Positions 14,032 to 38,840 of a stretch of 39,479 bases of DNA are shown piece after piece. The stretch comes from Pilatotrama ljubarskyi. Its lineage: Eukaryota; Basidiomycota; Agaricomycetes; Polyporales; Polyporaceae. The translations under genes were made by a program, and so were the position numbers. How positions within the stretch are numbered: the stretch's first letter is position 1; the number at the start of each line of letters is the position of its first letter. The stretch covers positions 4,993 through 44,471 of the forward strand of contig MU277707.1 in the NCBI GenBank assembly GCA_022385805.1. Reading direction: 5' to 3'. Under the pieces are notes generated by a model, which was not told the origin of the DNA, did not search any database, and worked only from the letters and a program-made list of their open reading frames with translations.

Positions 14032-16719
14032 ATGTCGGACGTTATCAAGAAGACAATCACGTTCAAGGGGTGCGTCCATGGCACCTTGCCTTTGTGCCAC
14101 ATTACTGACTCGGCGATGCCTTCGCCGTAGTGAGAAGCTCGGCGAGAGCTATACATTCACCCTCGCCATCGTCCCGCCCGATCCGGACCCCTTCAAGACT
14201 CTGAAACCTGTCGCATGGAAGTAGGTACCGGCATTCATACCGCTCGTTCAGCAGGGTGACGGACTCTTGCTGCAGAGTTTTCCAGCTCAGCAACGAAGGT
14301 ATGTCATTCAAGCGACCAGAGCACTGCGCTGCCGTGACCTAACCATTTTTGCATGACAGGCTCTGCCGAGGTCGTTTGGACGAACGAGTCAGTCTCCCCA
14401 CTGCATGTAACGCGCCGTGCTGACCTTCGTTCCGACGTATCAGCCTCGCGGCATGCCGCTCCACTGTGGATAAGAGTACGGCTCCAGCCCCAAGTGTCAC
14501 CGCCATCGAATACCATCCCATCACGGTAAGACTTGGCGGATATTGTATCATGGTGCGCTTGGAGTCTGACGACTGACTCGACGTTACGGTTCGCAGGTCA
14601 AGGAGACCTCGGATCTTCTGCTGGACACTACCCGGCGCCCGCCTATCTACCACTTTTCCGTGAGTCCGGCCTGACGCAAGTGCCGCGCTCATGTCCTGAC
14701 GTGCGCTTGTCTGTAGGAATCTGCACCGTTCTCCTCCCCAGAGAGGGCGCGGATCGTGAACAGAACAGGCAAGCTCGTAGAGTCTATCGGCAGTGGTACT
14801 TTGGGAGCCATACCCTTCCTCGATGCTTTCGCTGACCACCTACCGCCCTGTGCAGGCTTCATTACCGACAACGGCGAAAGCACGGAGGAGTTGAATCTCG
14901 TCCTCGCTTCCGGCTGGGTTCCGTACGTACTCTGTCTTGTTGGTAACGCCCCTAGGAGTTAAGTTGACACTCTGAGGTGACGGCCAGGGACGGGAAGGAG
15001 GTCTACGTCGACCACACTCCCGTGGCGAAGCTCTGGGTCAATTTGGACCACAAGCAGTCGCAGCTGCTCGAGAAGACAGTTCTCGACATTCCGCCGGTCT
15101 GGGAGCAGAACCTCCTCGCCATCTCCGACTCACATCTCACGGTCACCATCGCCCCCGACGCCTCTGGCAAAATAGTGGTGAAGAACCCAGCCGAGGACCT
15201 CAACCGGAGACAACCTGGGCCCGACGCGCGGTTCAAGCTCCCTACGGATGCTCACGACCTCAGCTTGACATCTTCCAGCGTGAGTGTTATTCCTACGCCC
15301 TCTCTACCGCTGCATGTTGGCACTGCGGAGGTCAAACTTTCGAACGCTACTCTGACGCACGCCCTATTTCCCAGCCGTACCCCGCGATATATATGGCGAC
15401 CCTCGCATTCTCCGCTCCCGTCCTAGTCGCGGACGGTCTGAAGGCGATCACGAAGCGGCTCGCGAGCAGCAACCTCGGCTTGCACGGGTTCAACTCCACT
15501 CTCAAGGTACGGCAAAGCGTGATCAGATTGATGTAAACCCTTTTGACCTGACGCCGTATCGGCAGGCCTCTGGCACCGAGGCGCGCCTCGAGATGCGCCT
15601 TCCCTCTCACGCAACCTTCAGCGACGCCGAGGGCGTCACCGCCCATGCCATTCGATACCTGCCCGACATGTACTCGCGGACGTACGTCAAGGGCCATGCG
15701 GGCTTCGTGCTCATCTCCGGCGAAGACGGCCACCAACAGTGGATGGATGTCAACCCGGCAAGTGCGATGTGGGCCGGAAGCAGGCTTAGCAGCATTGGCA
15801 GTAGTCTCGCAGTACGCGTGACGCTTTCCTGTACTGCCGTAATAGGTGTTCGCCTGACTGCTCGCGCGACGGTGCATTTTAGGACTTTGTATTTAGCATC
15901 AACGGGACCCATTCTGCCTTTCCTCGCGCTGGGGAGAGGCCCGCCCCCGACGTCCCGACTCTTGACCTCGTGCATGTTGGCGGCGGCCCCGAGCCCTCCA
16001 CTCAGGTCGCGGAGTATTTCACGACCCTCTGCGCGATCCAGAAGCTGCCGCCGTCCTTGCCCGGGCCCGGCACTCAATGCAATGGCGGGGACGGCAACAA
16101 CAACGCAGGCCAGTCGAACCGCGGAAGCGGCTCGGCCGGCCAGAGGAACGGCGGGAACGGCAACGACAACGCCGGTCAATCAAACAGGGGAGGAGGCCCC
16201 TACTACGGTCAGTACAACGGCGGGAACGGGAACGGGAACGGTTCCCAGTCCAACGCGCGCGGCAGCGCTGTCGACGGCCAGATCAACCCAGGACAGCCGA
16301 ACCCGACCTTTGGCGGTGGCCCATTCCGCGGACAGTACAACGGCGGGAACGGCAACGGCAACTCCGGGCAATCGAATTACGGTGCATCCGGCGGACAACA
16401 CAACGGAGGCAACGGGAACGGGAATGGCGGTCAGTGGAACAGCGGAGGCGGTCCAGGACCCGGGTCTCAGTGGAACGGCGGCAACGGCAATAACAACGGC
16501 GGCCAATGGAACAGCGGGGGAAGTCCCTTCGGACAGTACGATGGCGGTAATGGGAACGGCAACGCCAGACAGTCGAACTCTGGTGGTGGCGCCGGCGGAC
16601 AGTACAATGGCGGCAACGGCAACGGCAATGGTGCCCGGTTGAATGTTGGAGTGGGCGGTGACGGTCAGCACAACGGCGGCAACCGCAATGGGAACGGTGC
16701 TCAGGAGAACGTCGCTTGA
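14032..16719 (+). CDS. Unrecognised tandem-family protein 2, with Gly/Asn/Gln-rich tail
   Basis: Paralog of the gene at 9821. First exons are 14032-14069, 14131-14220 and 14276-14298, each followed by an intron with ordinary GT...AG ends; about ten exons follow. The start MSDVIKKTITFKGEKLGES aligns with the neighbour's MSAAMIEKNITF. Matching blocks include FTLAIVPP, PVAWKVF, AACRSTVDKSTA, SDLLLDTTRRPPIYHFS, GFITDNGESTEE, YVDHTPVAKLWVNLDHKQSQ and QQWMDVNPAS. From about 16075 to the TGA at 16717-16719 the protein is a ~210-residue array of GGNGNGNGGQ and QSN units, likely disordered and aggregation-prone. It lacks the neighbour's Pro/Ala block. No known domain, signal peptide or membrane segment is visible. 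Function unknown. Confidence 0.75.
16080..16715 (+). repeat. GGNGNGNGGQ-coding repeat
   Basis: Imperfect tandem units of roughly 30-60 bp (aacggcgggaacggcaac type) encode Gly/Asn/Gln-rich sequence in the last exon of the gene at 14032. The repeat resembles 12180-12480 and 39122-39479. Confidence 0.75.
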
Positions 16720-17000: not shown

Positions 17001-17384
17001 AGTGCGGAACACAAGCTGGCCCTTGTCGACAGCAGACGATGACATTAGGTACGTTGACTAGCATGCACGGTAAACGGTCTGAGCAGCATCGCGATCAGAA
17101 GATCCTGTCATGCCAGCGAGTAGTAGAGCTGAACAGTCCGAGGGGTCAGTACAAGGATATACAGTATATTGATGAGCAAATAGGGAAGCATTGTGGTGAG
17201 GATATAGTACGAGAGCAAAAGCACGACGCTTACGTGTAGCCAGCAAACAGCGAAGAAGAGACGTTGAGAACGAGACGAGGAGTGTGATGAACGACACCGA
17301 CACAACAAGTGACAGCCGTCAGCCTTCCAGAGGTCCACTGCAGCGTAATACGCCGCGGCGGAAGATAGGGAGCACACGGGCATG

Positions 17385-20357
17385 TCAGACCTGGCGAGCG
17401 CGTCCCTTCCCCTTCCTACGGGAGGTGGAGAGGTCTGGCTCCGTTTCGAACACCTGGCTGGGGCCGGCCGAAGACGCGGATTGGTTGCTATCCGAGCCGG
17501 TCTTGGCCCGTTTCGCACCGCTGACCTTTGTGCCTGACGCTTGACCCGCCGTCCGAGTGATTGTTGATTGGGCCACAGTGACGAAGACCGGTCGAGGGTC
17601 GTAGTTGACCAACTGGTCCTTGCCAGTGACCTCGGTATCACACCACTGCGCAGTCGGCGTTGATAACGCGCTCGCCAGGAGGCCTAGGAAAGCATCGTGA
17701 GTGTCGAGCTTCTTCGCTTCGTCCCTCATCCACGGGCGAAAGAGCGTCTGCCTCCGGGGTTTCTCGGGCTTGGCTTTGATCCATGGCCTATCGAGGTCAA
17801 GGGAGTCGAGGCCATAGGGGGTGGTATGGACAGGTGGTGTTGGATCATCTTCGCCGTCGGGAGAGCTCGTCTTCAGCGAGTCGTGCAAGATTACAACGTA
17901 TCGGGCCGAGAAGAGGGCGAGCAGATCCGATATAAGCTCGTTTAGAGGATTGCCGTGCTTTCGCGTCTTCTTCAGGAACTCGAGGGGGACCGACTGATTG
18001 CTCAATTGCCCATGCGTCAGTGTCGAACGCTTGAACTCGCCGGAGGACCGTTCTCCCGTACTGGGGTCCCGAGTGAAGGTATCGAAGTACTCGATCACAA
18101 ACTTCGTCACGGAGGGGAGTGTGCTGGGAAGGAAGCGGACGGCATAATATACCAGAACGTGGAAGAATGACTCCAGCTCGTCTGCAACAACGATGGGGCG
18201 AGTCCACTTGCAATCGATGTAATTCACAGACATGAATTGCCATGTGCCCTGCGTTACTGTGAGCGAAGTCGAACAGAAGAATGTCAAACATGACGTACAG
18301 TTCTTTCTGGTTGTCTCGCGACTTCTTCCTCGTCCTCTCGCGGGGCCCGCTTAGCCAATTCCCAGTCGGTCAGAACTCCTCGCCACTGGACGGCTTTTGT
18401 GCCATCTCGACCCGTTACAATTCTAGGAAGAATGAGAACGTTCCCTGCACTGATATCGCGATGCAAGAGGTCGTGATTCTTGTACGCCCAGTAGTGAGCT
18501 AGTACCGAGATGCGTGGAGTGCACTATGTTAGCAACGTACAAGAGAGCAGACGTCGACGTAAGACTCACTCTCGACGCAGTTGTACATCAGCCGAATCAA
18601 CTGCGCTGTCGTGCGGAATTCGGTGAATGGCAGGCAAACCTCCTCCACGGCGATGCGATAGTGGATATGGTGCCGGAAATGCTCATCCTCGCTGATAGCT
18701 TCCGTTCCCTGAGATGTCGCTTCGGCTTCATCGTCCGGCTGGGCCCGCTTCTTGCTCACAGAGCCGCTTGAAGTCGAGTCCGACGGGACAAGTTTCTTTC
18801 GCAGTGTTGCACGTAGGTCGCGCTTCCTCTCCTCCCGGCCCCTCTCTTCGTACCCAGCTGTGAATGCAACCTGGTTCCCAACGTCTCCATGACAGACGAC
18901 CGTCGGGACAATCATGTACTTGTCGCCAGAAAATCGCTCGAGGTATGACCCCTCAGGATCGACCCCCGCGTAGAACGGCCTCCAGGAATCCTTCAAAAAG
19001 ACGAATCGGCCGGTGTGAACGTCCACAGCGATGTAGCCCCGCGTTGCACGACCGAACATCGTGGATGACTTGAAGATAGGCTTCGCGACGAGAAAGACGC
19101 GCTTCTCCTCCCCGACCTCGAGTCTGTACCGCGGCCAGCCGGGTGCGAGCGACTCGCGGAACTGCTGGCGAACATACTTGAACACCGGCTGCTTCTCCCA
19201 ATCGACCTGGTGGAGAGGGCTGTCGCCGTGACCCTCTGTCTCGGTTTCAGGAGGCCTGGCCTCGTCAGAGCCTGAGGGAGGTGAGGGATCGGTGCCCGCC
19301 GATCTCGCGAGGGGTGAGTCAGTGACGATGTGCTCGGTGCCAGGCTCGAGGTAGTTCATGTCGAGGGGGTGCGGCTGCGCGAGGTAATTCATGAGCTTGA
19401 AATCTTCGTCGTCCGTCTTGATGAGCGTCGCTGTCGGATCCAGGCCCTGCTGTTCGTCGCTGAGCTGGGAAAAGTGCCAGATAAACTCCAGAAGCGGCTT
19501 CGGGTCCTTGTAGTAGTTCGTCTTCTTCGACACGATCACGCCGGACCGGTCCCACCACATCACACGGAACTCCTCGCCGATGATGAAGAGGGATAGAAGC
19601 GCAGTGCGGTGCTGGTAGTGAAAGATGTTCTGGGCGTAGGCGATGAGCTGATCCCGCACTTTCTTGCGCGAGGATCGGTCGGACTCCGGCGCCTTGTCAT
19701 CACGATCGTCCCACGGATCGTACGCAATGTTCCCCTTCTTGAACTCGATGTACAGCCGACAGTGGGTCCAGTCCGGATGGTCATCCGGAGGAGCGCAGTC
19801 TTTCGGATAGAGACCGGCGTCGACTTTAGACTTCGTGTCGTCTGACGGGTCGGCCTTGTATCTGGAGAGAGCAGCCTTGTATTCCGGAAGCTCCAGAGAG
19901 TTGATCGCCTTGACCTGCCGGCAGGAATGGGCACCATCAACAAGTCAACAATGGAGGAGCGGCTCGTCATACGCACCATTGTCTCTGCGATCTGGTCTTC
20001 CTTCGGCGAGACTGATTTCTTGTTCTCATCGCCCACAACCTGAAACCCTTTCATCACAAGCGTCTGCGCGCGCTGGATCTTCTCTTTGTCGAGAGGCTCG
20101 CTCGTCGTGTCAGGAGGCAGAGGAGGGAGGACATCTCGTTTGAACGTCTCGAAGTCCACGAGTACGGTCGTGCCCATGCTCTAGTCTCCAACCAGACGTC
20201 GGTCTAAAGCAGCGGCCGGTACGAGAGGTTGTCCTGCTTTTCCAGGGTCGAAATTGTTGAAGCGATTGGCCTTGAGCAGGGTGCACTTGTGACCCGCGCT
20301 ATGTTCGTATGCAACGGGTCCTGGAGGACAAGATTCGGCGTAAGGCATGTTCTCCAT
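17385..20357 (-). pseudogene. FunK1-type protein kinase, copy B, with an early nonsense codon
   Basis: Four exons: 20357-19977, 19914-18570, 18498-18299 and 18248-17385 (930 codons, in frame throughout). They encode a FunK1 kinase: N-lobe region with FKYVRQQFRESLAPGWPRYR, catalytic loop LHRDISAGNVLI (HRD plus Asn), metal-binding region LTDWELAK, the signature ERTGTWQFMSVNYI across the last intron, and a basic Ser-rich tail (KRAKTGSDS). The exon plan equals copy C. Codon 59 (20183-20181) is TAG where copy C has TCG (Ser). A downstream in-frame ATG at codon 61 (20177) could still give an almost full-length product, so it may be functional with a shorter N-terminus. FunK1 kinases are an expanded fungal family of largely unknown substrates. 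Confidence 0.85.
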
Positions 20358-20418
20358 TGAGAAAAAAAAGGACAGATGAGCGGGAGAAATAGCGGACACA
20401 CCTTCTGAGAGAGCGGGA

Positions 20419-20424
20419 ATATAT
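20419..20424 (-). promoter_or_regulatory. TATA-like box of FunK1 copy B
   Basis: CATATATTC (minus strand) lies about 65 bp upstream of ATG 20357 and is conserved at the same place in copy C (35094-35099). Confidence 0.4.
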
Positions 20425-20610
20425 GAGGCGGCGAGGGCAGGTGGCTAAATTGTCCATGTTGCTGTAGTATGGCTAAATGAGAGAGGCCAGGTGAGGCGTG
20501 GATATCACGGCGCAGCATTAAAGGGCTGCAGACAAAGGAATACGTTAGGGCTGGTGACGGACAATGGAGATGCGCACGATCGGGCTGGTGGTGGTCGGGG
20601 CTTGAGGGCA

Positions 20611-20618
20611 AGGCTTGG
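20611..20618 (+). repeat. 8 bp target duplication, left copy (hAT-like MITE)
   Basis: AGGCTTGG directly abuts the left inverted repeat of the MITE. The matching copy is at 20993-21000. Confidence 0.85.
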
Positions 20619-20992
20619 AGGACCCCCGACAATGGGTGAGGAGGCCTGATCCGGGGTCTCGCGATTTTGGCCAAAACGTCCGTTGGGAACAGGCATCATA
20701 AGCGCCCAGATTTGTCCGGACTGGCACAGGCGTAGGCCCTTTTTTTGGATTAAAAACGTCCGGATGAGCGGGCGCTAACGGCACAGGCCGGCGGTCCGCC
20801 GGTCAGGCGGGCGCCTAATGCTCCGTCCCGGCCTCCCGGACCCCCGAATCCTGCCTCAATGTCCGGACTTCGCCACAGGCGTTTGGGCGCTAAAATGCCA
20901 ATTTGTCCGGACTGGCACAGGCATAAGCCCTCCGAAAAGGCCTGTTCCGTCCGGACTAAGATCAGGCATACCCACTGATTGTCGGGGGTCCT
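20619..20992. mobile_element. 374 bp hAT-like MITE
   Basis: The terminal inverted repeats are 15 bp perfect (AGGACCCCCGACAAT at 20619, its inverse at 20978-20992). With a 10 bp unmatched gap they extend to a shared GCCTGATC, about 33 bp in all. Exact 8 bp direct repeats AGGCTTGG flank it, the duplication size typical of hAT elements. The interior has no gene but holds direct repeats such as TTGTCCGGACTGGCACAGGC (near 20712 and 20900) and many TCCGGAC motifs, which look like subterminal binding sites. It sits about 260 bp upstream of FunK1 copy B. Confidence 0.87.
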
Positions 20993-21000
20993 AGGCTTGG
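20993..21000 (+). repeat. 8 bp target duplication, right copy (hAT-like MITE)
   Basis: AGGCTTGG, identical to 20611-20618. It also overlaps the left target copy of element 2 (20994-21002). Confidence 0.85.
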
Positions 21001-21002
21001 GC
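20994..21002 (+). repeat. 9-10 bp target duplication, left copy (element 2)
   Basis: GGCTTGGGC (10 bp if the preceding A is counted), matching 28862-28870. The related sequence AGGCTTGTGC at 35284-35293 in the other module copy is the unoccupied site. Confidence 0.8.
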
Positions 21003-21173
21003 TAGTCTTTATCGGTATGCTGCGTTTGCCCCACCCTTGGCCATTTCAGAGTTTTTCGCATCACGTGATACGGTGGCGCCTTGTTAACACGTCAATATGT
21101 ACAAATAACGCGCCGGCACACAATAGACGCGCTGGACTTTGAGGAATCGTCGCCGCTACGCTCGTATGCGGCT

Positions 21174-23644
21174 ATGTCTGCCGCCGCGCCGCCCTCTGCG
21201 CGGTATGTATTCAGCTCTCCCGCCGGCTTTGAGCTCGTTCGCAAAACTGTACAACCTGTCGTCGGCTACTCGCCCCATGATTACCAGCTGGAAGGCGTGT
21301 GTAAGGTACTCGACGGGAGAGATCTAGTTGCCGTCCTGCCTACTGGTGCAGGAAAGACCGGCTACTATACGTTCTACATGCTCATGCTGCTCGAGATGTC
21401 TAAAAATCCGGGACTATGCTTCCCTGCCTCTATAGCTGTACCTGCTGATCCCTGCATGGTGACGGTCTACCCGACTAACGGTCTCGAGGAAGAGCAGGTA
21501 CGCTTTTGAGGTCACTGCCCTGACGATCATAGTGAGCTGAATCATTCTACAGGCTGCTACTTTTGAGAAGGCCGGTATCAAGACACTGATAATCAATACC
21601 GACACTCTGTCGCAGGCCCAGGCCGCGCGCCGGAGCCTCTGGGTGGAGGCCAGGACCGGTGTCGCTATACTTTTGCTGTCGCCGGAGCAGCTGTCTTCGC
21701 CCGGCTTCGAATCACTGCTCCAGGATCCTTCGTTTCAACGACGCATCTGTTGTCTCGGCATCGACGAGATCCACCTCCTCTACTCCTGGGGTCAGCAATT
21801 CCGGCAGTCGTACCGGCAGATCACGCACATCCGCGCTCGGATGCCTTCCCACGTGAACCTCATAGGGACGACAGCAACTATGCTTCTCGGACATGCTGAG
21901 GAGACCATTATGGCTTTCCTGGGACTTCGTGCGAGGGAGTTCCACCTCATTCGGCGCTCCAACCTCCGACACAGCGTGCGTACTATTTGGCGGAAGCTTT
22001 CGCACGGCCTGGGTAACTGGGCGTTCCCCGACCTCAAGTGGATCCTTGAGAGCGGTCGCAAGACCGTCATCCACTGCCGCACGATCGCTCTTGCATTCCA
22101 CGTCGCAATCTACCTGTGGCATCTTGCTCAGCCTGTCGCAGCGCGCGCAAAGCGCATTCGACTCTACCATGCACTCAACTGGACGTCGTACAACACAGAG
22201 ACACGACGACTCATGCGAGAGGACCCGGACGCTCAGATTGTGATAGCCACGGCGTCTTTCATGGTGGGAATCGACCTGCCAAATATCGAAGACGTGGTCA
22301 TTCTGGGCAACCTCTCAACCGCCGACGAGCACGTTCAGTGGGAGGGCCGGGCTGGACGAGACCCGCGAGTTGTGCACGACGCGCGCTGCATCACGTATCT
22401 GCCGAAGAAAGCTCTTCAGACCGCCCGCGCCATATGCGAGGGGAAGGTCCGTGGGGAAAAGAAGGACGATAAGGCAGCAAAGAAGTCGAAGGCTGTCCAG
22501 ATGGATATCAGCATGGCGAAGCTCCTCACCGCCCCCTGTTCAACCGCCATGCAGAACGAGCTCTACGGCAATCCTCCTTCCGATCCTCCCTGTACCTGCG
22601 ATACGTGCGGTCTCGCCCATCCTGGCTATGTCGTTCCTCCAGGGCTACCGTGCCGCTGTAGCGGCTGCGAGCCCGAAGACGTCGTTGAGCCTATCAAGCT
22701 CAAGCACGAGAGTCACAATCCAGTCCCGCCGAAGAAGCGTCTGACAAAGGTTATGCGTCGAGAAGGGATGAAGCGACTCCGTGCACTGCGCAAAGAGCTT
22801 TATCTCTCAACAGACACTAACGCGTCCCGAGCACTCCCTCCTAGCATTTTCCTCCCCGACACGGTCATGAAGCTACTCCTCGATCGTCTCGCACTGCTAG
22901 ATCAAAAGGCCACGCTTCGCGATGCGATCATGGGACGTGTCCATCTCTTACCTCATGTCGACACACTCTGGGAAGTGGTCGAAGACCTGCAGAGACAGTT
23001 TGAAGGCATGCGTACAACGAAGACGCCGACAGCTCTGCGCAGCAATGCCTCCGCCGCGGAGGACCACCATGGAGTCAATGAGACTAGTCAGCGCGCTCGA
23101 TCTCAGGCTGTTGCAATGTACGTGTCCTTGTGAATCGTCGATGCTGTGGTTACTGAAGCGGTCTGCGCCGCGCCTTCTATGGAGACAGCGTCAACCCCGT
23201 GTTCACAGGCACTTTCCAAGTTTCAATGCCTCGGGCGGTTGCTGGCGGCCACGCGCCCATGCTTGCACTGAGGCCAACGTAAGCTCCTCGCCGTCAGAGA
23301 AGCAGGTGGACTCATAATTTACGAATATTCCTAGGCAAATCGGAGATTCTGTCGAGCCGTACAAGGCGGGTCTGATCCAATGGAAGCTCGATTCAGTTCC
23401 AGAGCGCGTCGACAACAACCAACAGCCTCCTTCAAGTTCTACTTCGAGTCAGGCAACGAGCGCCCCGCTATCCAAGCCTCGCAAGCGGGGTCGGCCACTG
23501 AGCACGCCCAGTGCGCGTCCGCAGAAGAAGCACCGTGGAGTAAGTCCCTGGGTATGCTTACCCATGTGTGGGTTATGGCGCTGACTGTTTGGATAGGACA
23601 AAGAGAACGCCGCAGAATGTGTGCGCACAGATCAACGCAGTTGA
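21174..23644 (+). CDS. RecQ-type DEAD/H-box helicase of element 2
   Basis: ATP-dependent DNA helicase, roughly 730 residues. Exon 1 is 21174-21497, exon 2 runs from 21553 to about 23117, and three short exons end at TGA 23642-23644. Motif I is LPTGAGKT (near residue 63). Motif II is DEIH instead of DEAH, within DEIHLLYSWGQQFRQSYRQI, close to the RecQ DEAHCxSxWGxxFRxxY pattern. Motif III is GTTAT, motif V region FMVGIDLPNIEDV, and motif VI region QWEGRAGRD. A Cys cluster (CTCDTC...CRCSGC) follows in place of a normal RecQ zinc domain, and the tail carries an AT-hook-like KRGRP. The start at 21174 is the first ATG before the family-like region. Joints of the last exons are uncertain by a base. 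It converges with the DUF6589 gene, with 93 bp between stops. A role in transposition is inferred from location. Confidence 0.82.
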
Positions 23645-23737
23645 ATTGGTCCTGTATTGTTGTAGATGAGATACATTTACGCTCCCCTGGGCCCGCACAA
23701 GTCTGATGTCGACAAGTATGCCGTCACCTGCTGCTCA

Positions 23738-26700
23738 TCAAGCATCTTCACCGCTACTGCCACTCTGAAGATCCCCGGTACCATCTTCTTCAAAAATTCC
23801 TTCGTCTTCTTCGAGCTGTTGGATGTTATCGAGCTCCGCAACACTTACCATAGGCAAGCCTGCATCAGACAACACCATCATTCCCATGGTCGGGAGCAAG
23901 TCTCCGTAGCCGGTGTCGTCTTCCTCGTCAGAGTTATCCTCTGTACTGGGGAGGTCTTCGCTGCTGACACATTGACAATGTTATTCCCCGACAAGGCGAG
24001 GCGACAGCATGCAAAGAACGCACTGATGACCTTCGGCGGTATGTGTGTCCTGCAGGATCGAGCGAGCACGTGTTGAATCCCCGATAAACTTTTTCAGTTT
24101 CTTCTGCTCCAAATCAACGACTCCTGCCTCGAAGTTGCTCTTGACTTCCGTCCAGGTGTGATGCGACCGTCCTGGGCAAAAGGAGTGGAGCTCAGCATCC
24201 TTGTACGTTGCCAAAAGTGTCTTGATCTCTGGTCGACTATGCGGCTCGGGATGTCTGCCCCGCCGAGCGGCTAGACCAACGCCTCCGCCCCACTGATTTT
24301 TAAGCTCTACAAAGTGATAAACATTTGGCGAGATGACCTGTCGGATGAACTTGCTATCCCACTCAGCGCCCTTGCGGGTAATAGCCTCTTCAAGCTCGAG
24401 GTTGAGATGTTCTTGAAGTAAGTCGCCTTCAATCATGCGTCCCGGCTCTCCGGATGGGTTCACTAGCCAATTGCGCAGGAAGGCGTCCCGGAGTACTGGA
24501 CTGGACTCCAGCTCGAGGCTGCAGATCATCTCCAGAAGGTATGTTGCATACTTTGTATGGCTTGACCCAGCGAAGGAGAACATCATAATCTACCCGACCT
24601 CGATGTTGGAGACAAGCTAACTGAGATATCAGGAAGGTGCATACCTTGAGATCATTCCAGAGACGACCTACATCTCCCGAGGCAACGGCTTGTGATGCGT
24701 CACGGGAGAGCATGGTCTCGGACATGAAGAGAATCGATCGAGCAAGTGCAGTATCCCCTTCAAACACGTCTGAGCTCTCAGAATCTGCACCACGCTCCGA
24801 GGATGCTGCAGAGCTTTCCGTGTCGGGTCCTGGTGAGTGCGACTGCCTCCCATCATCGTCTTCAGGTTGCTGAGATCGCACGTCAGCTCAGCAACTTCTC
24901 AAGGAAAGCATCCACTGCTGGTGCCTGGCCCAGGACAATGTGCGCACTCACTGGACTGTCCCAGCAGCGTTGAGGTGCTCTGGCTGACCCTCCGCTACTG
25001 GGCTGATACAGTGGACGTGCTTCTTGTGTAGCATTGCTCTTGTCTTGCCGCCATGGTGAGCCAGTCTTCCAGCCGGCTTCAGCGGCGCTTGATCCCCCCT
25101 CGTTCGCACTGAACCACGCTTTCTGAGTGGAGTAGCGGTGATGCAAAGTTGCAGCAGCCTGTCTCAACTCCGCCATGGTAGGCAACGTGTTCTGTAGGCT
25201 CAAGATCTCAAAGTGTGCGTGGAGGTCGTCGCAATCTAGGTGAGTGCTAGACGTCAACCGGAGTTAGACTGTCACTACATTCTTCTCTGATATTACGTGA
25301 AGCGTACCGCCAGCAATCAAGCATACGCGCATCTAGGACGATGTATGCTGTATACAGACTCGGGTAATAGTCGACCTTCTTGAGGTTAGTCGGTGCCTTC
25401 TGATCAATCTTTGTCGCACTATGGCCCAGCGTTGATACATCCTTGGTGAGTGCATCCCCAAAGTGCGTCTCGAAAACAAGGCTAAGGTATGTCCACAAAG
25501 TGTGCCATACTTCGAGGAAGGGCATGATGAGCTCGCATCGCTGGAACTCGTCGTCTTGGAATTGTAAGTAGTTCTTCAGCTGTACCAGCTTCTCGAATGT
25601 TAACCCATCCCCTCCGACAGGGATGAGACGCCTCGTGTAGTCGCCCTCGCTTTGTCCTATCTGCCCAAGGAAGTCAAGCAGGGCAGCAAGAAGCTCCGGG
25701 GTTACAGCCTCGTTCTTGGCCGACGTTGCCAGTGAGTGAATCCTGGCCTTCCGCTCAGGTCCCTCCGGAAGTCTGAGCTTTGCACCTTCCGTCCTATATA
25801 GGTGCGCAACCTCTGGCTTGTACGGCGCAAGTGCGGGGACATAGTCCACGAGTACTTGCATCCACTGCAGTGTGAAGACGATGTCCAGGTGATCAAAGTC
25901 CACCATGTTTGTCAGCTGATCTACTGAAAGATCACTTCGTCGGTCCTCGCGAATGCGTCGCAGTCGATCATCCACGTCTGCTGCTTCTGGAGTGAAGTCG
26001 AAGGCCTCTACAACTGTCGCCGCCACGCCGACTTTCATGGCATTCTCTCGGCCCATGTGACGCTCGCGGCGCTTCTGGTATTGCTGCACGTTGTCCATAC
26101 GAATGACGGGCCACTGCGCTGGGTTACGGCCGAATTGGACCAGGTACTCCGCGTCTTGTTTTCCCAGCCGCGCGAGTGTCTCATACGCAGTGCTCCAGCT
26201 CTGCGTGAGCGCAACCCTGCTGCTGTAATCAAAGACCACACGGGGTACTCCGCATGCGAAGTAGAGGATGCTGCGTGCAGCGGGAACAAGACGGGCATGT
26301 TTCGTCCTGGAGAAGTTGAGCGTACTGATGACCTCTGTAGTGACCTATGAGTGAGTGTGTTAGATGACTGCCCAAGCAATCAGCGCTTGGCGATGGGCTC
26401 ACGAGGGTAGGTGGACGTGTTTTCCTGATCATCACCTTTCCGCTCTCATCTCTCCGCTCAGCAGGGGTTGCAAGTTCTCGCAGTATGTGGAATGTGAGCG
26501 GCTGATGTCTCTCCAGCAGGTCCTGTGCACGCAGCACTGTGTGGCTTCCGATATCTTGCCAGGAGATCTCTCGGTGTCCCTGACTTCCTGAAGCGCTGCC
26601 GTGGAGACCGTTCTTCCCCCGCACTGCCGTCTTTTGTTCCCGCAGCATGCGTTCCATGGTGAGCTGCACTGCCATGGCAGTGATCGCGACAGAGGCATGC

Positions 26701-28142
26701 TTGATCTCGCTCCAATCTGCATTGGGCGAGTACCTGAGTGTGAACTCGCTGTTTGTCATCTTCGGGCGTCCAGCATGGTCCTCGAGCCAGTAATTGATGA
26801 TTTGGATAGGTTTGCGCTTCGTCTGGCCGCTCAAGAACATGCCAATGATTGTCCCGTGGCGCTCGTCCCGTCTCACGATGTTACCGCTGTCATCATGCGT
26901 GCGAAAGGCACTGTAGAGGAACTCGCCGATCGTCCAGTCAAGGCTTTTCAGGTGGCTGAACACTGAGGTGAGTTTCGCCGCCCTACGTTCTGCATCTGTC
27001 TTCCGACGTCCATCAGTACTTGTGTAAAAGTCTGACGAGGTCTGACGCAGACCTCTCAGACCCTTCAGACCAGGTCTCAGACATATTCAGACAGGCCAGA
27101 TGGTCAGAGCTCAGAGGTAGCAGGACGGTTGTTCAGACATTTTGAGTTTTCATGTTTTGCCCCTGAAACGTCCTTGTGGAGATTGTTAAGCCAACCTATG
27201 CATCCTTCTTACATATTCCACAGCTATGTGAAGTCTAACTCGACTACTATCGCCTCATATTGACCCCAAGTTGATGCATTCTGGACAAGCCATTTCATGC
27301 CATTGGCATCAATAGTTTCTTTCAGGAAGGCTCTGAATTGATTACAGAGTTTATACTACACATGTGCAAGGTGCTCCATGCTGCAATATGCAACGAAAGG
27401 CCCCTAGGTAGCAGCAGACCTGGCAGGTTGGACAAGTCTGAGGGGTCTGACTGAGAAAAGGTCAGACATGCCAGATGCTCAGAGATTTGCGAAAGTACTG
27501 ATGTCCAGGAGTAACCTTGCCTGGCGTAGGAGCTTGTGCTGACTTTTCATATCGCATTCAAGGTGAGTTTGAAGTATTCAAATGATGCTCAAATGGGCTC
27601 GCACTCACCGTAGTTGCCCGGCCAGTAGATGCTGAGTCGATTGGGTCCCTCAATGGCGTCTGGGCAGTATATACAGTGCGCGTGTCTTCGCGCTCAAGCC
27701 TGGGGCTATCTCCATGGGACTGTCCATCGGACGTCAACGCCCTGTCGATGGCTCCAGGGGTGTAAGGGCTTTCAGGCGGTGCATCTAGGTATCAGCGCAT
27801 CCACGGCTTTGGTGAGTGCCGTAGCTGCAAATCTAGTACCCTGCTCATAGAGGACTCACAGCTACTGCCTACCATGGCGGGAATACGGTGTCCTCTGGTG
27901 AAGATGCTCTCTTCCTCCTCTTCTAAGAGAGTTTGCACCGGCTGCCAGCCTCTAGACCCGGACATGCCGGCCATAGCAAAGGGTGACGGTGCAGAGAAGT
28001 CCTCTGCTGGAACGGTCAACGGCTTTGGTGTGGGCGTGCTGATGCCAGACCTAGACTCCTGGCTAAGAGGTCGCCATCCTTGGGAGTCCGATGCATGATC
28101 CTCGGGCTGGGGCAGAGCTCTGTTGTGCGAGTATGAACCCAT
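23738..28142 (-). CDS. DUF6589-family protein of element 2, candidate transposase
   Basis: ATG at 28142. Exon 1 (to about 27858) and exon 2 (about 27776-27602) encode a Ser/Pro-rich start. The conserved part runs from about 26990 (VFSHLKSLDWTIGEFLYSAFR) through blocks near 26985-26402, 26345-25305, 25230-24870, 24860-24650, 24590-24020 and an acidic last exon ending at TGA 23740-23738. DUF6589 landmarks: PVIRMDNVQQY, GGDGLTFEKLVQLKNY, a following E and WHTLW, NLKKVDYYPSLYTAYIVLDA-type segment ending MLDCWR, FSFAGSSHTKYATYLLEM and GRHPEPHSRPEIKTLLATYK. The family is uncharacterised. The spaced acids (MDN, GD, E before WHT) recall an RNase H-like DDE core, which is inference. A 491 bp MITE-like insertion interrupts it near 27.0-27.5 kb, so this copy may be impaired. 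Length about 1,100-1,200 residues. Confidence 0.78.
27012..27502. mobile_element. 491 bp MITE-like insertion in the DUF6589 gene
   Basis: Inverted ends ATCAGTACTT (27012-27021) and AAGTACTGAT (27493-27502) are flanked by GTCC on both sides (27008-27011 and 27503-27506). Many TCAGAC/GTCTGA motifs cluster near both ends (27031-27145 and 27436-27480). The interior is AT-rich and has no gene. Removing it with one GTCC joins two stretches of DUF6589-gene coding sequence in one frame (PGKVTPGRRKT on the minus strand). The 4 bp duplication is short, so the exact end is less certain than the insertion itself. Confidence 0.65.
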
Positions 28143-28861
28143 AGTCCAGTTCGTGGTGTTGGAATATGTGTTCCGAGTTGATGCTAGACAGAGGCGAGAA
28201 GTTTACGTTCCTCAGTGTGAGTGTGTTGGGATGTCAGTGGCACAAAGGCGTGAATTTATGCTCAGAGAGCGCGGAAGTGTGTTCAGCAGAACTCCATGCT
28301 AGAAACACGGAGTGCGGCTGTTCCTTCTCGAGCAGGATTGATATCGACGGAAATGCCGTCGGTCCACCACTATGACACTGCCGGTATGCAGAACAGCCCG
28401 CGGTGAATTTCCTCATACTCACACATCCGTGGTTCATGGCAGTCTGGGATCTGGTCAACAGTACAACGGTGCCGCGGATGAAGGCACCACAAGACTCGGG
28501 CAGCATTGACATCCGCGCGCAATGACGAAGCCGAGGCACATATCTTGTGGTATATTCGAAACCGGACTAGCCTTACTACAAATCTCTACTATGAGAGAGT
28601 TGGAGGGATTGTGTTTCAGCAGCAGTATGTTGTCACAGAGCGTGTATGGACGACACGGGACGAATACGTAGCGTAGAGGGAGGTGACAGTACTGTCATTC
28701 CCGCTGACGAAGACTAAATGCTCATTGGCTGGAGAGAGGACAGACGCCGAAGCACAAAGCTTTCGCCCAAGGGTGGGGTAATCGACGCGTACACGAGCAG
28801 ACCATTATAAGAAATCGATCGACTTATCATCGCTTTCTATTATGGTCAGCAACGGAGACTA
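28143..28861 (-). promoter_or_regulatory. 5' region of the DUF6589 gene and right end of element 2
   Basis: No gene is seen. It contains the upstream region of the DUF6589 gene, one arm of an inverted CCAAGGGTGGGG (28767-28778) and the terminal AGACTA (28856-28861). Confidence 0.4.
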
Positions 28862-28870
28862 GGCTTGGGC
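28862..28870 (+). repeat. 9-10 bp target duplication, right copy (element 2)
   Basis: GGCTTGGGC, identical to 20994-21002. The A before it (28861) is shared by the element end AGACTA and a possible 10 bp duplication. Confidence 0.8.
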
Positions 28871-29542: not shown

Positions 29543-30328
29543 ATGGTCGCAAAGCGCCGACAGGCCGCCGGGCGCGCCTCGCAAACAGATGCCACGCAGA
29601 CAGCGGTGCCAGCGAGTGCTCGCTCGCGTATCCAGGTGGGTCCGCCCCCAATGGCACGGCTGCACTTTACGATTTCCTCGCTTTGCATACCGAGGCGGCC
29701 GTTCTGCCACTTACAGAGTCCGCCCATCCTGAAACTACCTGTGGAGCTCGTCAGACTCATCTTTGCCTTCCTCTCCGACGAGCCTCCGCCCTGGCTCGCA
29801 TCCATATCCACCATATGCAAGGCACTCCTCCCCGAAGTGGACGCTATCCTCTACCGTTTCGTCTACCTCAACACTTGCAAGGCAGTCTCGCGCTTCATCA
29901 GCGCCGTCCTCAAGCGCACACACAGGCCTACCGCTGTCCGCACGCTGCTCATCGAGGTGTTCGGCGCCGCGACCTTCACTGCCAGCTGGACTCAGCGAGC
30001 TATCCCATCTCTCACGAACCTCCGCGCCCTAGCGCTGATACTCCGCGAGCCCGTGCTCTTCGACCATCTCCTCTGCGCGCCCGTTCGCCTGGAGGCCCTC
30101 ACCGTTGGCGGGAAGAACTACCCGGTTTGCTTCCCAGACATCCTCGCGTCCCAGCCAAACCTGCGGAAGCTCTCACTCTCCTTCGAGATCGCCAATTCGG
30201 CAGACCCAAGCAAACGACCCTGCGCTGCTCCCCAGCTGCGCACCCTCGCGATCAGCGCACATACCTTCCCGCCGCAGTGCTGCGTGCACCGCGTTCGAGG
30301 TGGCAGGCAGACGGAGGCAGCTCTCTGA
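29543..30328 (+). CDS. F-box-like protein, copy 1, truncated at the C-terminus
   Basis: Exon 1 starts at ATG 29543 (MVAKRRQAAGRASQTDATQT) and ends at about 29605. An intron ending in ttacag precedes SPPILKLPVELVRLIFAFLS, an F-box-like motif (LPxEL, IFxFLS) that continues into PPPWLASISTICKALLPEVD. The following ~170 residues (TLLIEVFGAATF, RLEALTVGGKNYPVCFPDIL, LRKLSLSFEI, PQLRTLAISAHTFPPQC) are weakly repeat-like, as in fungal F-box proteins with degenerate leucine-rich regions. F-box proteins link substrates to SCF ubiquitin ligases; the substrate is unknown. Compared with copy 2 there is an internal deletion of a few codons, and homology is lost after PPQCCVH, so the native C-terminal ~140 residues are missing. 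Probably a non-functional or altered copy. Confidence 0.75.
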   Translation: MVAKRRQAAGRASQTDATQTAVPASARSRIQVGPPPMARLHFTISSLCIPRRPFCHLQSPPILKLPVELVRLIFAFLSDEPPPWLASISTICKALLPEVDAILYRFVYLNTCKAVSRFISAVLKRTHRPTAVRTLLIEVFGAATFTASWTQRAIPSLTNLRALALILREPVLFDHLLCAPVRLEALTVGGKNYPVCFPDILASQPNLRKLSLSFEIANSADPSKRPCAAPQLRTLAISAHTFPPQCCVHRVRGGRQTEAAL

Positions 30329-31689
30329 ATCCCGACCTGACGGAGGAGGCGGAGGCACTGGTCTGGGGGCGGCTCCTGTGCTCCTCCTATGCTCGATGAT
30401 GTGCGGTGTGAGGGTGATCGGACGCTCCTTCGCGTTCGCAGTAGGCCAAGAAAAAGCCGCACCTGCGCCGGGCGTGTATTCTGACTCGTCCTTGAGTACA
30501 ACGCTAGCCATGGTCAGTAGTGGAATCCGTCTGGCACTGGGGTTTGTTAAATGAAATGACGATGATATGGCAGGATAGCGCAAAGCGGGCACGTAAGCGC
30601 AAAGCGCAAAAGCATCCCTTCATGTGTTTGAGGCGGTACACGCTGTCCGTCGCTTCACAGAGATGGATTCGAATATTTATGCCCATGCCGTTATGATGAA
30701 GACGGATGTGAGGTCGCAACAACTTCGCTCGATGTACCCGACGAACCTGTGCAGTCCGGTTCGCTGATGACTCGCGATGCGTATTGCATGATCGACGACG
30801 TATCCGATGTCGAAAACGAGGAAAGTTTGGACCATCTGGCCTGCGGCGGACTGCTGTGCAGTCATGAGGGATTCGATGGAGGGTGGCGTTCGCTCTACCC
30901 ATGGGTCGCGGTGCTGGTACGGCAGGGTATGCGAGATCGGCATCCGTACCACAAGGCGTTGGGTCGTAAGCTCAAGGTCGGACAAATTTTACGAGGCTCA
31001 TGCGTGCCCGCTCTTGAGAGAACGAGTCGTCGCTGCGAGCCTGAGTGCGGATGGCCGTGGTCTAATCAAGAGACGTACCTGGAGTAACTAAATAGTTCTC
31101 CGTGATCCCGCATGACGGTACAACGCTCTACTATCTCTGTAGACTCACGGTGTCTGGTGGTCGACGTATTGCTGTACGTACGAGAGACGGTCGCACGATC
31201 ATGATACTGTCGCACAGAACAAAGCAGAAGCGGGGTACGACCAGAGGCGTGTCGTAGTCAAAATGAGCTCAGGCTTCTGCATGCGTCTGCACGGGCCCTG
31301 GCGGCGTCGCAAAGGGTCGAGCAGGGCGAGCTGGTGAGGCTGCTGTTTCGTTTGTCGGCCGAGTGAAGTCGTGCCGGGAAGATGAGCTTGTAAGACCCGC
31401 ATGGCATACGCCGTAACGTCCCCGCCGCAGATCAAAGCGGCGTCCCGAGTTACAGGAGACGTCTCTATGCTTCCCGATGAGATCCCTCATACGCTCACCA
31501 TGTGGTCTAGTATGCAGCGGAGTGGCTGCGAGTGCTCCTCCGGCGAACGATAATAGCGATGACGACGAGCCCTCGCGCAGCGCGCAAATGAACACGCTGT
31601 CCACCCCCGTTCTACGGATCCCGTCAATTCGGCGGTGCCTTGACAGGCGAAAAGGCCCACAAGCGTCAACAAGGTCGCACTGTCTGAAC
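30329..31689. other. Spacer between module copies, possible acetyltransferase relic
   Basis: No intact gene. A minus-strand stretch at about 30985-30677 reads LTTQRLVVRMP at its start, which resembles the beginning of GNAT acetyltransferases (LxTxRLxLRxP), and later GLHRF, but it lacks an acetyl-CoA loop and has no clean start. I treat it as a possible decayed fragment only. The rest shows no motif. Confidence 0.2.
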
Positions 31690-32057
31690 AGAAGCTGGCC
31701 CTTGTCGAGAGCAAACGATGGCATTAGGTACTTTGACTAGCATGCACGGTAAAGGGTATTAGCAGCGTCGCGATGAGAAGATCCTGTCATGCCAGCGAGT
31801 AGAGCTGAACAGTCCGAGGTATTAGTACAAGGATATACAGTATATCCATGAGCGGATAGGAAAGCATTGCGATGAGGGTATGGTACGAGAGCAAAAGCAG
31901 GACGTTTACGTGTAACTATCAAACAGCGGAGAAGAGACATTGAAGACGAGACGAGGAGTATGAGGAACGACCCAACAAGTGGCAACCGTCAACCTTCCAG
32001 AAGTCCACTGCAGAGTCATACCGCTGTCGCGAGAAGTAGGGAGCACACACTGGCAGG

Positions 32058-35036
32058 TCAGACCTGGTGAGCGCGTCCTTTCCTCTTCCTATCGGAGGCG
32101 GAGAAGCCGGGGTCAGTTGCGAACGCGGATGGGTTACTCTCCGAGCCGGTCTTGGCCCGTTTCGCACTGCCGTCCCTTGCGCTTGACCCTTGACCCACGG
32201 TACGAGTGCTCACTGCATCGACGGCAGCAGCAAAGACGACCCGCGGCTCGTAGTTGACCAGTTGGTCCTTTCCGGCGACATTGGTGTCAATCCAATCCGT
32301 AGCCGGCGCATCCAACGCGCTCGAGAAGAGCCTGAGGAACTCGTGATGGGTATCGAGCTTCTTTGCCTGGGTCTTCATCCACGGGCGATACACGGGTAAA
32401 GCTGTCTCCTTCTGGGCCTCCTCATCTTTGGCCTTATTCCATGGTTTCCCGGGGTGGCGGACTTTGGCGCGAGGCCGGGTCACGGTGGTAGTACTCTTTA
32501 AGACAGGTGGTGTTGGAACGGTGTTGCTGTTGTCCTGGGTCTTCGTTTCCAGCTCATGCAGAATGACAGCATATCGGGCCACGAAAAGTTCGAGGAGATT
32601 TGACAGGAGCCCGTTAAGAGGGTTTCCCTGCTCCCGTGTGGTCTTCAGAAATGCGAGACGGCCTTTCTGCTCGTAGCTCAGCACCCCGGACTGAATTGCC
32701 GAGCGCTTGGACGGGCCGCAAAGTCGTTCTCGGGTGGTGGGGTCGGGGGAGAAGGTGTCGAAGTAGTGAATCACGAAGGTCGTCACTGAGGGGAGCGTGT
32801 TTGGAAGAAAGCGGACGGCGTAATAGAGGAGAACGTGGAGGAACGACTCAAGTTCGTCCGCAACAACTATGGCGCGGGTCCAGTTGCAGTCGATGTAATC
32901 CACGGACATAAACTGCCATGTGCCCTGCGTTATGGTGAGCGAAGCAGAGCAAGGGGCAATTGCACATGACGCACTGTTCTCTCTGGCTGTCTCGCGGCGT
33001 CCTCCTCGTCTTCCTCCTTGACCCGCTTGGCCAATTCCCAGTCTGTCAGGATTCCGCGCCACTCGACGATCTCTACGCCATCATCATCCGTCACCAGCTT
33101 AGGGAGGATGAGAACGTTCCCTGCGCTGACGTCGCGATGCAGGAGGTCGTGGTTTTCGAATGCCCAGTAGTGAGCTGGCACGGGTGGTTTCAATACAGAT
33201 ATACCAGCAACGAATAGCATAGTATGGATGGACGCAGGACTTACTCTCGATGCAATCCGACATGAGGCGAATCAATTGCTCGGTTGTGCGAAATTCAGAG
33301 AATGGTAGGCAAACCTCCTCGACGGCAATGCGATAGTGGATATGGTGACGGAGAGATTCATCCTCGCTGGCGGGGATCGGGCCCTGGGATGCCCGTTGGG
33401 CTTCGTCACCCGGGTTAGCACGCTTCTTGTTGGCAGAGCTGCTTGGATTTGAGTCCAACGGGACGCGTTTCGTCCGGAGCGCTTCGAGACGGGCGCGCTT
33501 CCTTGCCTCCCTCCCCATCTCCTCGTAGCCAGCGGTGAAAGCGACTTGGTTCCCGACATCGCCATGACAGACGACCGTCGGGACATCCATCTCCGAATCC
33601 TTGTGGTTCTTAAACATCTCGAGGTAGGAGCCCTCGGGCTCGACGCCCTTGTAGAACGGCCTCCAGGAGTCCTTCAAGAAGACGAATCGGCCGGTCTCGA
33701 CGTCGACGGCAACGTAGCCCCGCGTTGCACGACCGAACATCGTGGATGACTTGAAGATGGGTTTCGCGACGAGGAAGACGCGCTTCTCCTCCCCGACCTC
33801 GAGTCTGTACCGCGGCCAGCGGGGCGCGAGCGACTCGCGGAACTGCTGGCGAACATACTTGAACACTGGCTGCTTCTCCCAATCGACCTGGTGGAGAGGG
33901 CTGTCTCCGTGACCCTCTGGCTGGGCCTCAAGAGGCCTGGCTTCATCAGAGGAGGATAGTGAGACATCGTTGGTCGCCGATCTCGCGAGAGGCGAATCAG
34001 TGACGATGTCTTCAGTGCCGGGTTCCAGGTAGTCCATGTCGAGGGCGTGGGGTTGCGCGAGGTAATTCATGAGCTTGAAATCACTATCATAGGCCTTAAT
34101 GAGCGTCGCTGTCGGGTCCAGACCCTGCTGCTCATCGCTGAGTTGTACGAAGTGCCAGATGAACTCCAGAAGCAGCTTGGGGTCCTTGTAGTAGTTCGCC
34201 TTCTTAGACACGATTACGCCGGACCGGTCCCACCACATGGCCCGGAACTCCTCGCCGATGATGAAGAGGGATAGAAGCGCCGTGCGGTGCTGGTAGTGGA
34301 AGATGTTCTGGGCGTAGGCAATCAGCTGACCCCGCACTTTCTTGCGCGAGGATCGCTCAGACTCCGCCTGCTCTGTAGGGCGGTCGTCCCACGGATCGTA
34401 CGCAACGTTTCCCTTCTTGAACTCGATGTACAGGCGGCAGTGGGTCCAGTCCGGTCGGTCGGCCGGAGGAACGCATCCTTCGGGATAGAGCCCGGCGTCG
34501 ACTTTGGACTTCGTGTCGTCCGAGGGGTCGGCTCTGTATCTGGAGAGGGCGGCCTTGTATTTCTTCGGGAGATCTAAAGAGTTGATCGCGTCCACCTGCC
34601 CGCAGGGACGTGCATTATCAGCAAGTGACCGCCATGAGCGGCTTGTCGTACGTACCACCGCATCTGCAATCTGGTCTTCCTTCGGTGGGACTATCTTGTT
34701 GTTCTTGTCGAGCACCATCGGGAACCCTTTCATCACATGCGTCTGAGCGCGCTCAATCTTCCCTTGATCGAGAGGCTCGCTCTGGGTGCCAGAGGGGAGG
34801 GGAGGGAGGACTTCACGTTTGAACGTTTCGAAGTCCACGAGTATAGTTGTTCCCATGCTCGAGTCTCCAATCAGACGGCGGTCGAGAGCCGCGGCAGGTA
34901 CGAGAGGCTGTCCTGCCTTTCCGGGGTCGAAGCTGCTGAAGCGGTTTGCCTTGAGCGGAGTGCTCTTCTGACCGGCGCGATTCTCGTATTCAACGGGTCC
35001 TGGAGGGCAGGAGTGAACGGGAGACAGGTTTTCCAT
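32058..35036 (-). CDS. FunK1-type protein kinase, copy C (intact)
   Basis: Four exons: 35036-34656, 34595-33245, 33174-32975 and 32924-32058, total 933 codons in frame, with GT...AG introns of 50-70 bp. The start MENLSPVHS matches copy B. Kinase features: conserved N-terminal half with WTHCRLYIEFKKGN and FHYQHRTALLSLFIIGEE, FKYVRQQFRESLAPRWPRYR, catalytic loop LHRDVSAGNVLIL (HRD, Asn), LTDWELAK in the DFG position, ERTGTWQFMSVDYI, and VVADELESFLHVLLYYAVRF. The C-terminus is basic and Ser-rich (SAKRAKTGSES, RKRKGR), a possible nuclear signal. It predicts a Ser/Thr-type kinase of the FunK1 family, which is expanded in multicellular mushrooms; partners are unknown. It diverges from an F-box-like gene as copy B once did. 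A TATA-like box lies at 35094-35099. Confidence 0.9.
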
Positions 35037-35093
35037 GATTATGGAGTAAATAAAGAAGGTGAGATGACGGACGAACCTTCCGAGAAAGCGAGA

Positions 35094-35099
35094 ATATAT
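35094..35099 (-). promoter_or_regulatory. TATA-like box of FunK1 copy C
   Basis: CATATATTC on the minus strand, about 60 bp upstream of ATG 35036; conserved in copy B. Confidence 0.4.
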
Positions 35100-35283
35100 G
35101 AGCGGGTGAGAGCAGGTGGCTAAACTGAACACGTTGCGGTATGGCTAAGTCAGAGACTGAGTGCGACGTGAGCTGCAATATCACGGCGCCGCAGTAAAGG
35201 GCTGCAGACAAAGGCTTATCTGAATGAGATGGCGGACCATGGAGAGACGCACAATCGGGTTGGTGGCGGTCGGGCTTGAGGCA

Positions 35284-35293
35284 AGGCTTGTGC
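35284..35293 (+). other. Unoccupied target site corresponding to the element 2 insertion
   Basis: AGGCTTGTGC followed by GGCTCTTAACTACGAAC. It aligns without a gap to the two sides of element 2 (20993-21002 and 28871 onward), differing from the duplicated sequence by one base. Confidence 0.8.
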
Positions 35294-37661: not shown

Positions 37662-38840
37662 ATGGTGACGACGCGCCGACAGTCCGCCGCTCGTACCACG
37701 CTAGGTGCTACCGACATAGCGGTGAATCCCCATTCGCCTATGCAGTTGAGTCCATGTCCACCGAATACATACTTGTCCCCTCTGTCTCGCTTTGCCTATT
37801 GACATGACCATTCTATCTTCTTACAGAATGCCCCGATGTGTAGACTACCCGTTGAGCTCGTTAAAGTCATCTTTGCCTTCCTCTCCGGCGAGCCTCCGCC
37901 CTGGCTTGCATCCATATCCACCGTATGCAAGGTCCTCCTCCCTGAAGTGGACGCTGTCCTCTACCGTGTCGTCTACCTCAACACTTGCAAAGCAGTCTCT
38001 CGCTTCATCAGCGCCGTCCTCAAGCGCACGCACAGGCGTACCGCTGTCCGCACGCTGCTCATCGAGGTATTCGGCGGCGCGACTTTCATTACTGGCTGGA
38101 AGCGGGCCATCCCATCTCTCACGAACCTTCGCGCTCTAGCACTAATAGTAGACGAGCCCGTGCTCTTTGACCATCTCCTCGGCGCCCCCTTTTGCCTCGA
38201 GGCCCTCACCGTTGGCGGGAAGAACTACCCCGCTTGCTTCCCGGACATCCTCGCGTCCCAGCCGGACCTGCGCAAGCTCTCACTCTCCTTCGAGATCGCC
38301 GACTCGAAGAACGCAAGCGAACTACCCGCTTTATCCGACCCTGCGCTGCTCCCCCAGCTGCGCACCCTCGCAATCAGCGCACATACCTTCCCGCCGCAGT
38401 GCTTCGTGCACCCGTATGCCATCACGGACCTCACGCTCATCCGCCCCGCGCACGCCGGTCTTTCACACGCGCTGCGCACGATCGTCTGGGGCGTCGAGTG
38501 CGAGGAGCTCTAGGACCTGCTCTGGCGCCCCGAGGACTTTGGCGGCGCCGTCTCCCTCCCTGGCGGCTCGGGCTCGACCTCGGAGGAAGCTGGCAAGAAC
38601 GGGCCGCCACAACCGGCCCCATCGAAGATCCAGGCGTACGAACGCATGCCGTTCTCCGCGCTGCCCGCACTGGAGCGCGTCGCGGCGTACGACTTGGACG
38701 ACTGCGCGCCGGCGGAGGACGGGGTGTGGGGATGGGTGTACATGAGGAAGAATAAGGACGACGAGCTGATCGATGATGCTGTGCTCGAGATGGACGCGTG
38801 GCGGAGGCGGGCTGTCAATGAGGCGACGGCGACGGCGTGA
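37662..38840 (+). pseudogene. F-box-like protein, copy 2, with an internal TAG
   Basis: Exon 1 is 37662-37721 (MVTTRRQSAARTTLGATDIA); the intron is 37722-37826 (gtgaat...acag). Exon 2 begins NAPMCRLPVELVKVIFAFLS, an F-box-like motif, and continues with the same blocks as copy 1 (TLLIEVFGGATF, CLEALTVGGKNYPACFPDIL, LRTLAISAHTFPPQC) and then YAITDLTLIRPAHAG. A TAG at 38511-38513 follows VWGVECEEL. The same frame then stays open for 108 codons (LLWRPEDFGG ... YDLDDCAPAEDGVWGWVYMR ... DDAVLEMDAWRRR) to TGA 38838-38840. The downstream part has clear coding character, so the TAG looks like a recent nonsense mutation. The truncated product would keep the F-box and most of the leucine-rich part. Read-through or a sequencing error are alternatives. 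Confidence 0.8.

Follow-up and report, generated by a model that had tools for sequence, protein, structure and literature searches.

Do the two genes that lie tail to tail in one stretch of DNA from the polypore Pilatotrama ljubarskyi, one coding for a RecQ-type helicase and the other for a DUF6589 protein, form a single transposon, and if so, of which kind? The stretch analyzed (the window, 39,479 nucleotides, to which plain positions refer) comes from contig C38 of a 33.1 Mb genome. A first-pass annotation, made from the sequence of the window, had proposed that the two genes are one mobile unit with DUF6589 as the transposase. The evidence discussed in the following sections indicates that the complete element of 7,859 bp at 21003-28861 is very probably an AcademH-type DNA transposon (class II), in which DUF6589 is the transposase and the RecQ-type helicase acts with it.

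Ends and target site of the element

The element is flanked by two copies of the 9-bp target duplication GGCTTGGGC, situated at 20994-21002 on the left and 28862-28870 on the right, as the first-pass annotation had read them. It starts with TAGTCT (21003-21008, forward strand) and terminates with AGACTA (28856-28861). These ends recur in related copies, which, together with a paralogous empty site, back both the ends and the duplication. The right terminus (28797-28861, forward strand) contains a subterminal inverted repeat (GACCAT at 28800-28805 and ATGGTC at 28842-28847) followed by AGCAACGGAGACTA. Right ends resembling this terminus occur alone elsewhere in the genome, and a similarity search with the left 150 bp of the element returned no second match anywhere in the genome.

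The unoccupied target site GGCTTGTGC is present as a single copy at 35285-35293, in a paralogous copy of the locus. The right flank of the element, target included, matches this site for ~82 bp. The left flank at 18049-20617 is 80% identical to 32725-35290; the claim of matching flanks holds on this side only in part, because the match stops at 20617, short of the element, where an insertion of 374 bp intervenes. This separate insertion (20619-20992), overlooked earlier, possesses 15-bp inverted ends AGGACCCCCGACAAT and an 8-bp duplication AGGCTTGG at the element's own target, so that three copies of AGGCTTGG are found at the target site. We also note that the element lies within an old duplication, in one of its two copies; these are 78-87% identical and pair 17007-20617 with 31686-35290 and 29710-30294 with 37820-38415 in the window.

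Related copies with two ends

Related copies with common ends carry 9-bp duplications that differ from copy to copy; among nine two-ended insertions, eight duplications are exact and one has a single mismatch. A second copy, on contig C158, is 89% identical to the window element over its last 169 bp. A related non-autonomous family of ~0.9 kb, termed family B, has the ends TAGTCTTTATCTC and GGCAACGGAGACTA and is 77-78% alike to the window element across the last 96 bp. Its two-ended copies on C7, C34, C53, C54 and C24, two of which are split by other insertions, all have exact and mutually different 9-bp duplications (CTTAATATG, AGTCCCGAC, TCATATACC, TGACACACC and ACGCGGATG), located exactly at the family ends, while a sixth copy on C13 is truncated by the contig end. 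Since the B copies were detected by DNA similarity, independently of their duplications, five exact duplications out of five are not a matter of chance. The search for other copies with common ends and different duplications, suggested by the first-pass annotation as a check, confirms the earlier observation.

Two boundary scans provided three further units. Scan 1 looked for 9- or 10-bp duplications adjoining inverted ends, for which a shuffled control gave 0 to 0.05 matches per locus at an inverted end of at least 6 bp, and it yielded C16:473950-480250, with identical inverted ends of 98 bp and the duplication TCAGTCACC. Scan 2 required TAGTCT-like ends and yielded C38:274051-280231 (GAGCTGGGC/GAGCCGGGC) and C64:160111-168263 (GTTTTCGAC; ends TAGGCTCGAG and TCGAGTCTA). 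Each of these units encloses both genes, with terminal inverted repeats and target-site duplications (TSDs). A single degenerate copy of the long terminal repeat of family C was observed at C51:224916-225024, and no duplication with at most one mismatch was present downstream of it within the ~1 kb examined.

The helicase and its pairing with DUF6589

The helicase gene (21174-23133, forward strand) consists of at least two exons, with splice sites not fixed, and its product has the Walker A motif GAGKT, DEIH and QWEGRAGRD. The family was judged from a relative, P0121, which is 81% identical to the helicase of the window. P0121 matches the RecQ-family model TIGR00614 at E 2e-28, under the curated cut-off of that model, and its structure matches are an ATP-dependent DNA helicase, RecQ5, RecQ1, RecQ and BLM. 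The Pfam matches of the helicase above cut-off are DEAD (PF00270) and Helicase_C (PF00271); no RQC or HRDC match was listed in the Pfam search.

A profile search of the genome with PF20231, the Pfam family of DUF6589, gave 17 matches at eight loci. Seven of these loci, all those not cut by a contig end, have a helicase within ~5 kb. When the genome was searched with the helicase of the window, seven places were found: its own locus in the window, five that adjoin DUF6589 loci, and a weak one (E 8e-4) not beside such a locus; the partner at the seventh DUF6589 locus, on C25, was located by tblastn with further helicases. At the eighth locus, on C158, the contig end falls inside the element; the rest of it may be represented by a helicase 81% identical to that of the window, which has been recorded for this species on a contig of 14,553 bp. 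The first-pass annotation had looked to convergent pairs within 10 kb. The proximity was found for all seven pairs and the convergent, tail-to-tail arrangement seen in the window for five, whereas the pairs on C64 and C112 are head to head.

Pairing is also observed across species when the same species and an equal contig size are taken as a stand-in for the same contig. Among public proteins, 8 of 29 DUF6589 relatives share species and apparent contig with one of 68 helicase relatives: one pair is on the window's own contig, two are from Trametes sanguinea, two from T. coccinea, and one each from T. cingulata, Earliella scabrosa and Daedaleopsis nitida. The other 21 have no helicase on the same contig among the matches listed, in which the helicases were restricted by length and closeness. 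GSI_13250 (helicase) and GSI_12667 (DUF6589) of Ganoderma sinense are apparently on one contig, but lie 583 gene numbers apart. The repeated pairing and the three further complete units support the earlier proposal that the two genes are one mobile unit.

The DUF6589 protein

The DUF6589 gene (23984-28202, reverse strand, outer limits approximate) is a multi-exon gene for a candidate DDE transposase. It is interrupted toward its 5' end by a repeat of 493 bp (27011-27503), the second insertion overlooked in an otherwise correct description of the locus, which has inverted ends CATCAGTACTT and the 2-bp flanking duplication TC. The C158 copy is without this repeat and is coding at that position; judged from it, the repeat lies within the coding part of the gene, and the window copy is damaged because its coding sequence is broken there. 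The public gene model P0189 is partial, with its start downstream of the repeat. The transposase has been under purifying selection in the past. Further copies of the 493-bp repeat are present in the genome at 97-99% identity, along with a group at ~74%, and their 2-bp flanking duplications are TC, CA, CG and TA, hence not always TA.

Structure prediction, the other check that had been suggested, points to a transposase. The best structural matches of two DUF6589 models, obtained with VIA-align, on which the fold assignment rests, are Hermes (hAT), P element, RAG1 and ISCth4. Like these, DUF6589 is predicted to have an RNase H-like fold in which helices are inserted ahead of the last acidic residue, the arrangement of Hermes and RAG1. 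Three residues, D, D and E, are conserved in DUF6589 proteins, the E being placed by its position in the predicted model. The predicted fold and these residues support the assignment of DUF6589 as a putative RNase H-like DDE transposase. It differs from the four matches in its helicase partner and 9-bp duplications, and in having neither a C/DxxH motif nor a PDB sequence match (A1 profile). When the E is placed by the model, no column shows C/DxxH between the second D and this E in more than 4 of 61 or 1 of 32 sequences, and membership in hAT or P was rejected on this ground.

Relation to AcademH and rival explanations

AcademH was reportedly first described by Kojima in 2020 (Mob DNA 11:15). 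In the literature, TSDs are 9 or 10 bp for AcademH and 3 or 4 bp for AcademX and are tied to the encoded helicase and nuclease (Kojima 2023, PMC10045372), Academ is counted among the DDD/E superfamilies (PMC9587614), AcademH is a low-copy group in Basidiomycota, Ascomycota and Mucoromycota (PMC10799480), and putative Academ elements are given for the basidiomycete Marasmius oreades (PMC8290104). The present element resembles AcademH in its 9-bp duplications, in encoding a helicase (PF00270 and PF00271, with RecQ models under their cut-offs), in its DDD/E transposase as assigned by predicted fold and conserved residues, and in its fungal host. It is filed as AcademH-like because the helicase and the 9-bp duplications match published AcademH. 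The present element family shows subterminal inverted repeats as well as right ends that stand alone. DEAD and Helicase_C do not single out AcademH, because PMC10799480 assigns them jointly to AcademH, KolobokH or Helitron. As helicase-encoding transposons with 9-10 bp duplications have been published as AcademH (PMC10045372), the element type is already known and the novelty that the first-pass annotation implied for the pairing is not supported. A literature search gave no paper in which any three of the following came together: RecQ helicase, transposase, polypore and a 9-bp target site.

Helitrons are not known to duplicate their target when they insert; the 9-bp duplications, and the lack of an HUH nuclease among the Pfam matches of the two proteins, led us to reject membership in that group. 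KolobokH, a fungal Kolobok with a RecQ helicase beside its transposase, is a closer rival in content, as the RecQ helicase, the DDD/E transposase and the restriction to fungi all agree with its description in PMC9587614. The same description gives Kolobok 4-bp TTAA duplications, 5'-RR..YY-3' ends and a C/DxxH motif, whereas the present duplications are 9 bp and not TTAA, the ends are 5'-TA..TA-3' and no C/DxxH was found with the E placed by the model; the duplications already contradict a KolobokH element, which is therefore very unlikely, and the membership was rejected. An explanation without any transposon would have the flanking GGCTTGGGC copies as old direct repeats or part of the 374-bp insertion, and both genes as ordinary host genes. 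The target site does carry three copies of AGGCTTGG, which the 374-bp insertion duplicated too, but the recurrence of the same ends with different duplications and the single-copy paralogous site contradict repeats that predate the insertion, leaving this explanation hardly credible.

A superfamily of helicase and DUF6589 apart from Academ, which acquired its 9-bp duplications and helicase partner by convergence, is improbable, though less so than the two preceding explanations. It gains from the AcademH membership being set by description, from architecture and TSD length; from Pfam listing the function of DUF6589 (PF20231) as unknown; and from a literature search that gave no paper naming DUF6589 and none relevant with PF20231 or its InterPro number, the single match being on optics. 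Against it, AcademH, as described, has the TSD length, a helicase and the host group in common with the present element.

Several other observations weigh, like that basis by description, against the assignment as an AcademH element with a DUF6589 transposase. The duplications of the three units of families C and D are not independent evidence, because the scans used the duplication, and three of the seven pairs (C25, C112 and C123) showed no convincing two-sided boundary in these scans. C25 and C123 gave one candidate each, with a one-mismatch duplication and only 8 of 20 bases inverted, which were taken as chance; on C112 a left end TAGACTCG lies at 60041, but the contig stops before any right end appears. 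Plain Foldseek on the DUF6589 model found nothing below E 0.001, and a search of PDB sequences with the DUF6589 alignment (A1 profile) was empty at E 1. The model also assigns the third catalytic residue, and an alternative conserved glutamate is present as E472 in P0003 (50/61) and E447 in P0189 (29/32).

Proposed mechanism and solo right ends

In the proposed mechanism, the DUF6589 transposase would bind the element ends, cut beside TAGTCT/AGACTA and join the ends to staggered target cuts 9 bp apart, with catalysis presumably by D, D and E. The RecQ-type helicase, encoded on the opposite strand, would act with the transposase; its most likely task would be to unwind the ends or the joined intermediate, which host enzymes would then process.

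The right ends that occur alone bear on the part of the helicase. A 14-base right-end pattern with at most two mismatches gave 115/125 against 104/121 in the control; because this is almost no excess, follow-up was confined to the 21 places that match with 0 or 1 mismatch. From these, only ends similar beyond the pattern were used, and C2, C89, C138 and C11, with nothing beyond it, were dropped; C13 and the two-ended copies were left out of the count. Pattern places and BLAST matches together gave 13 places with a right end only. Eight of them have a 45-67 bp fragment between 9-bp duplicates that differ by no more than one mismatch (four exact), compared with a background in the same loci of 4 in 25,374 positions, or 0.009 expected per search; the other five comprise a two-mismatch candidate on C41 and four without duplication. 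Searches for families A and B gave no left-end-only copies. The left borders of the solo fragments are not TAGTCT; they are spread over ~20 bp, and the fragments start within or beside the outer arm of the subterminal inverted repeat. By eye, the junctions of the 45-67 bp insertions looked inconsistent in their splice signals, and a reading of these insertions as introners was dropped.

The subterminal inverted repeat is present at both ends in families C and D and at the right end only in A and B. Folding of 66 nt of the window right end gave a hairpin with z -3.5, equaled in 0 of 200 shuffles, and the B right end gave z -2.9 (2/200); the left ends of A and B gave z +1.2 and -1.6, and four solo copies folded alone -1.7, -1.4, 0.0 and -0.1. 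At 120 nt the values were -4.1 for the window right end, -1.5 for that of C158, -1.6 for the single C51 end, and -1.7, -1.4 and +0.5 for the weak B right ends, while families C and D, with the inverted repeat ~10-12 nt inside both ends, reached -2.1 to -5.7. We read the solo right ends as insertions of one end, broken off close to the base of the inverted repeat. Possibly, although we hold it doubtful, the ends act as single-stranded hairpins: the RecQ helicase would expose the inverted repeat 10-15 nt inside the terminus, a cut at its outer base would free the end, and the transposase would insert it as a micro-insertion of 45-67 bp with a normal 9-bp duplication. An inverted repeat that simply offers the transposase two binding sites of opposite orientation would agree equally well with the data. 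Near the end of the window, at 39131-39468, we also observed tandem repeats with inverted matches at 12362-12473 and 16402-16522.

Implications

If true, hairpin ends would mean that a eukaryotic DDE transposon transposes by one end and that the helicase has a direct role; the right ends that stand alone between 9-bp duplications, together with the inverted repeats near whose outer arm they break, make the part of the helicase testable. The present assignment proposes a function for the PF20231 family. One search recorded at least 297 DUF6589 proteins, and the named ones among 120 listed are fungal and called 'hypothetical' or 'uncharacterized', except for one misnamed as a helicase. DUF6589 proteins most likely serve as transposases in helicase-carrying transposons, and genome annotation should treat them so.
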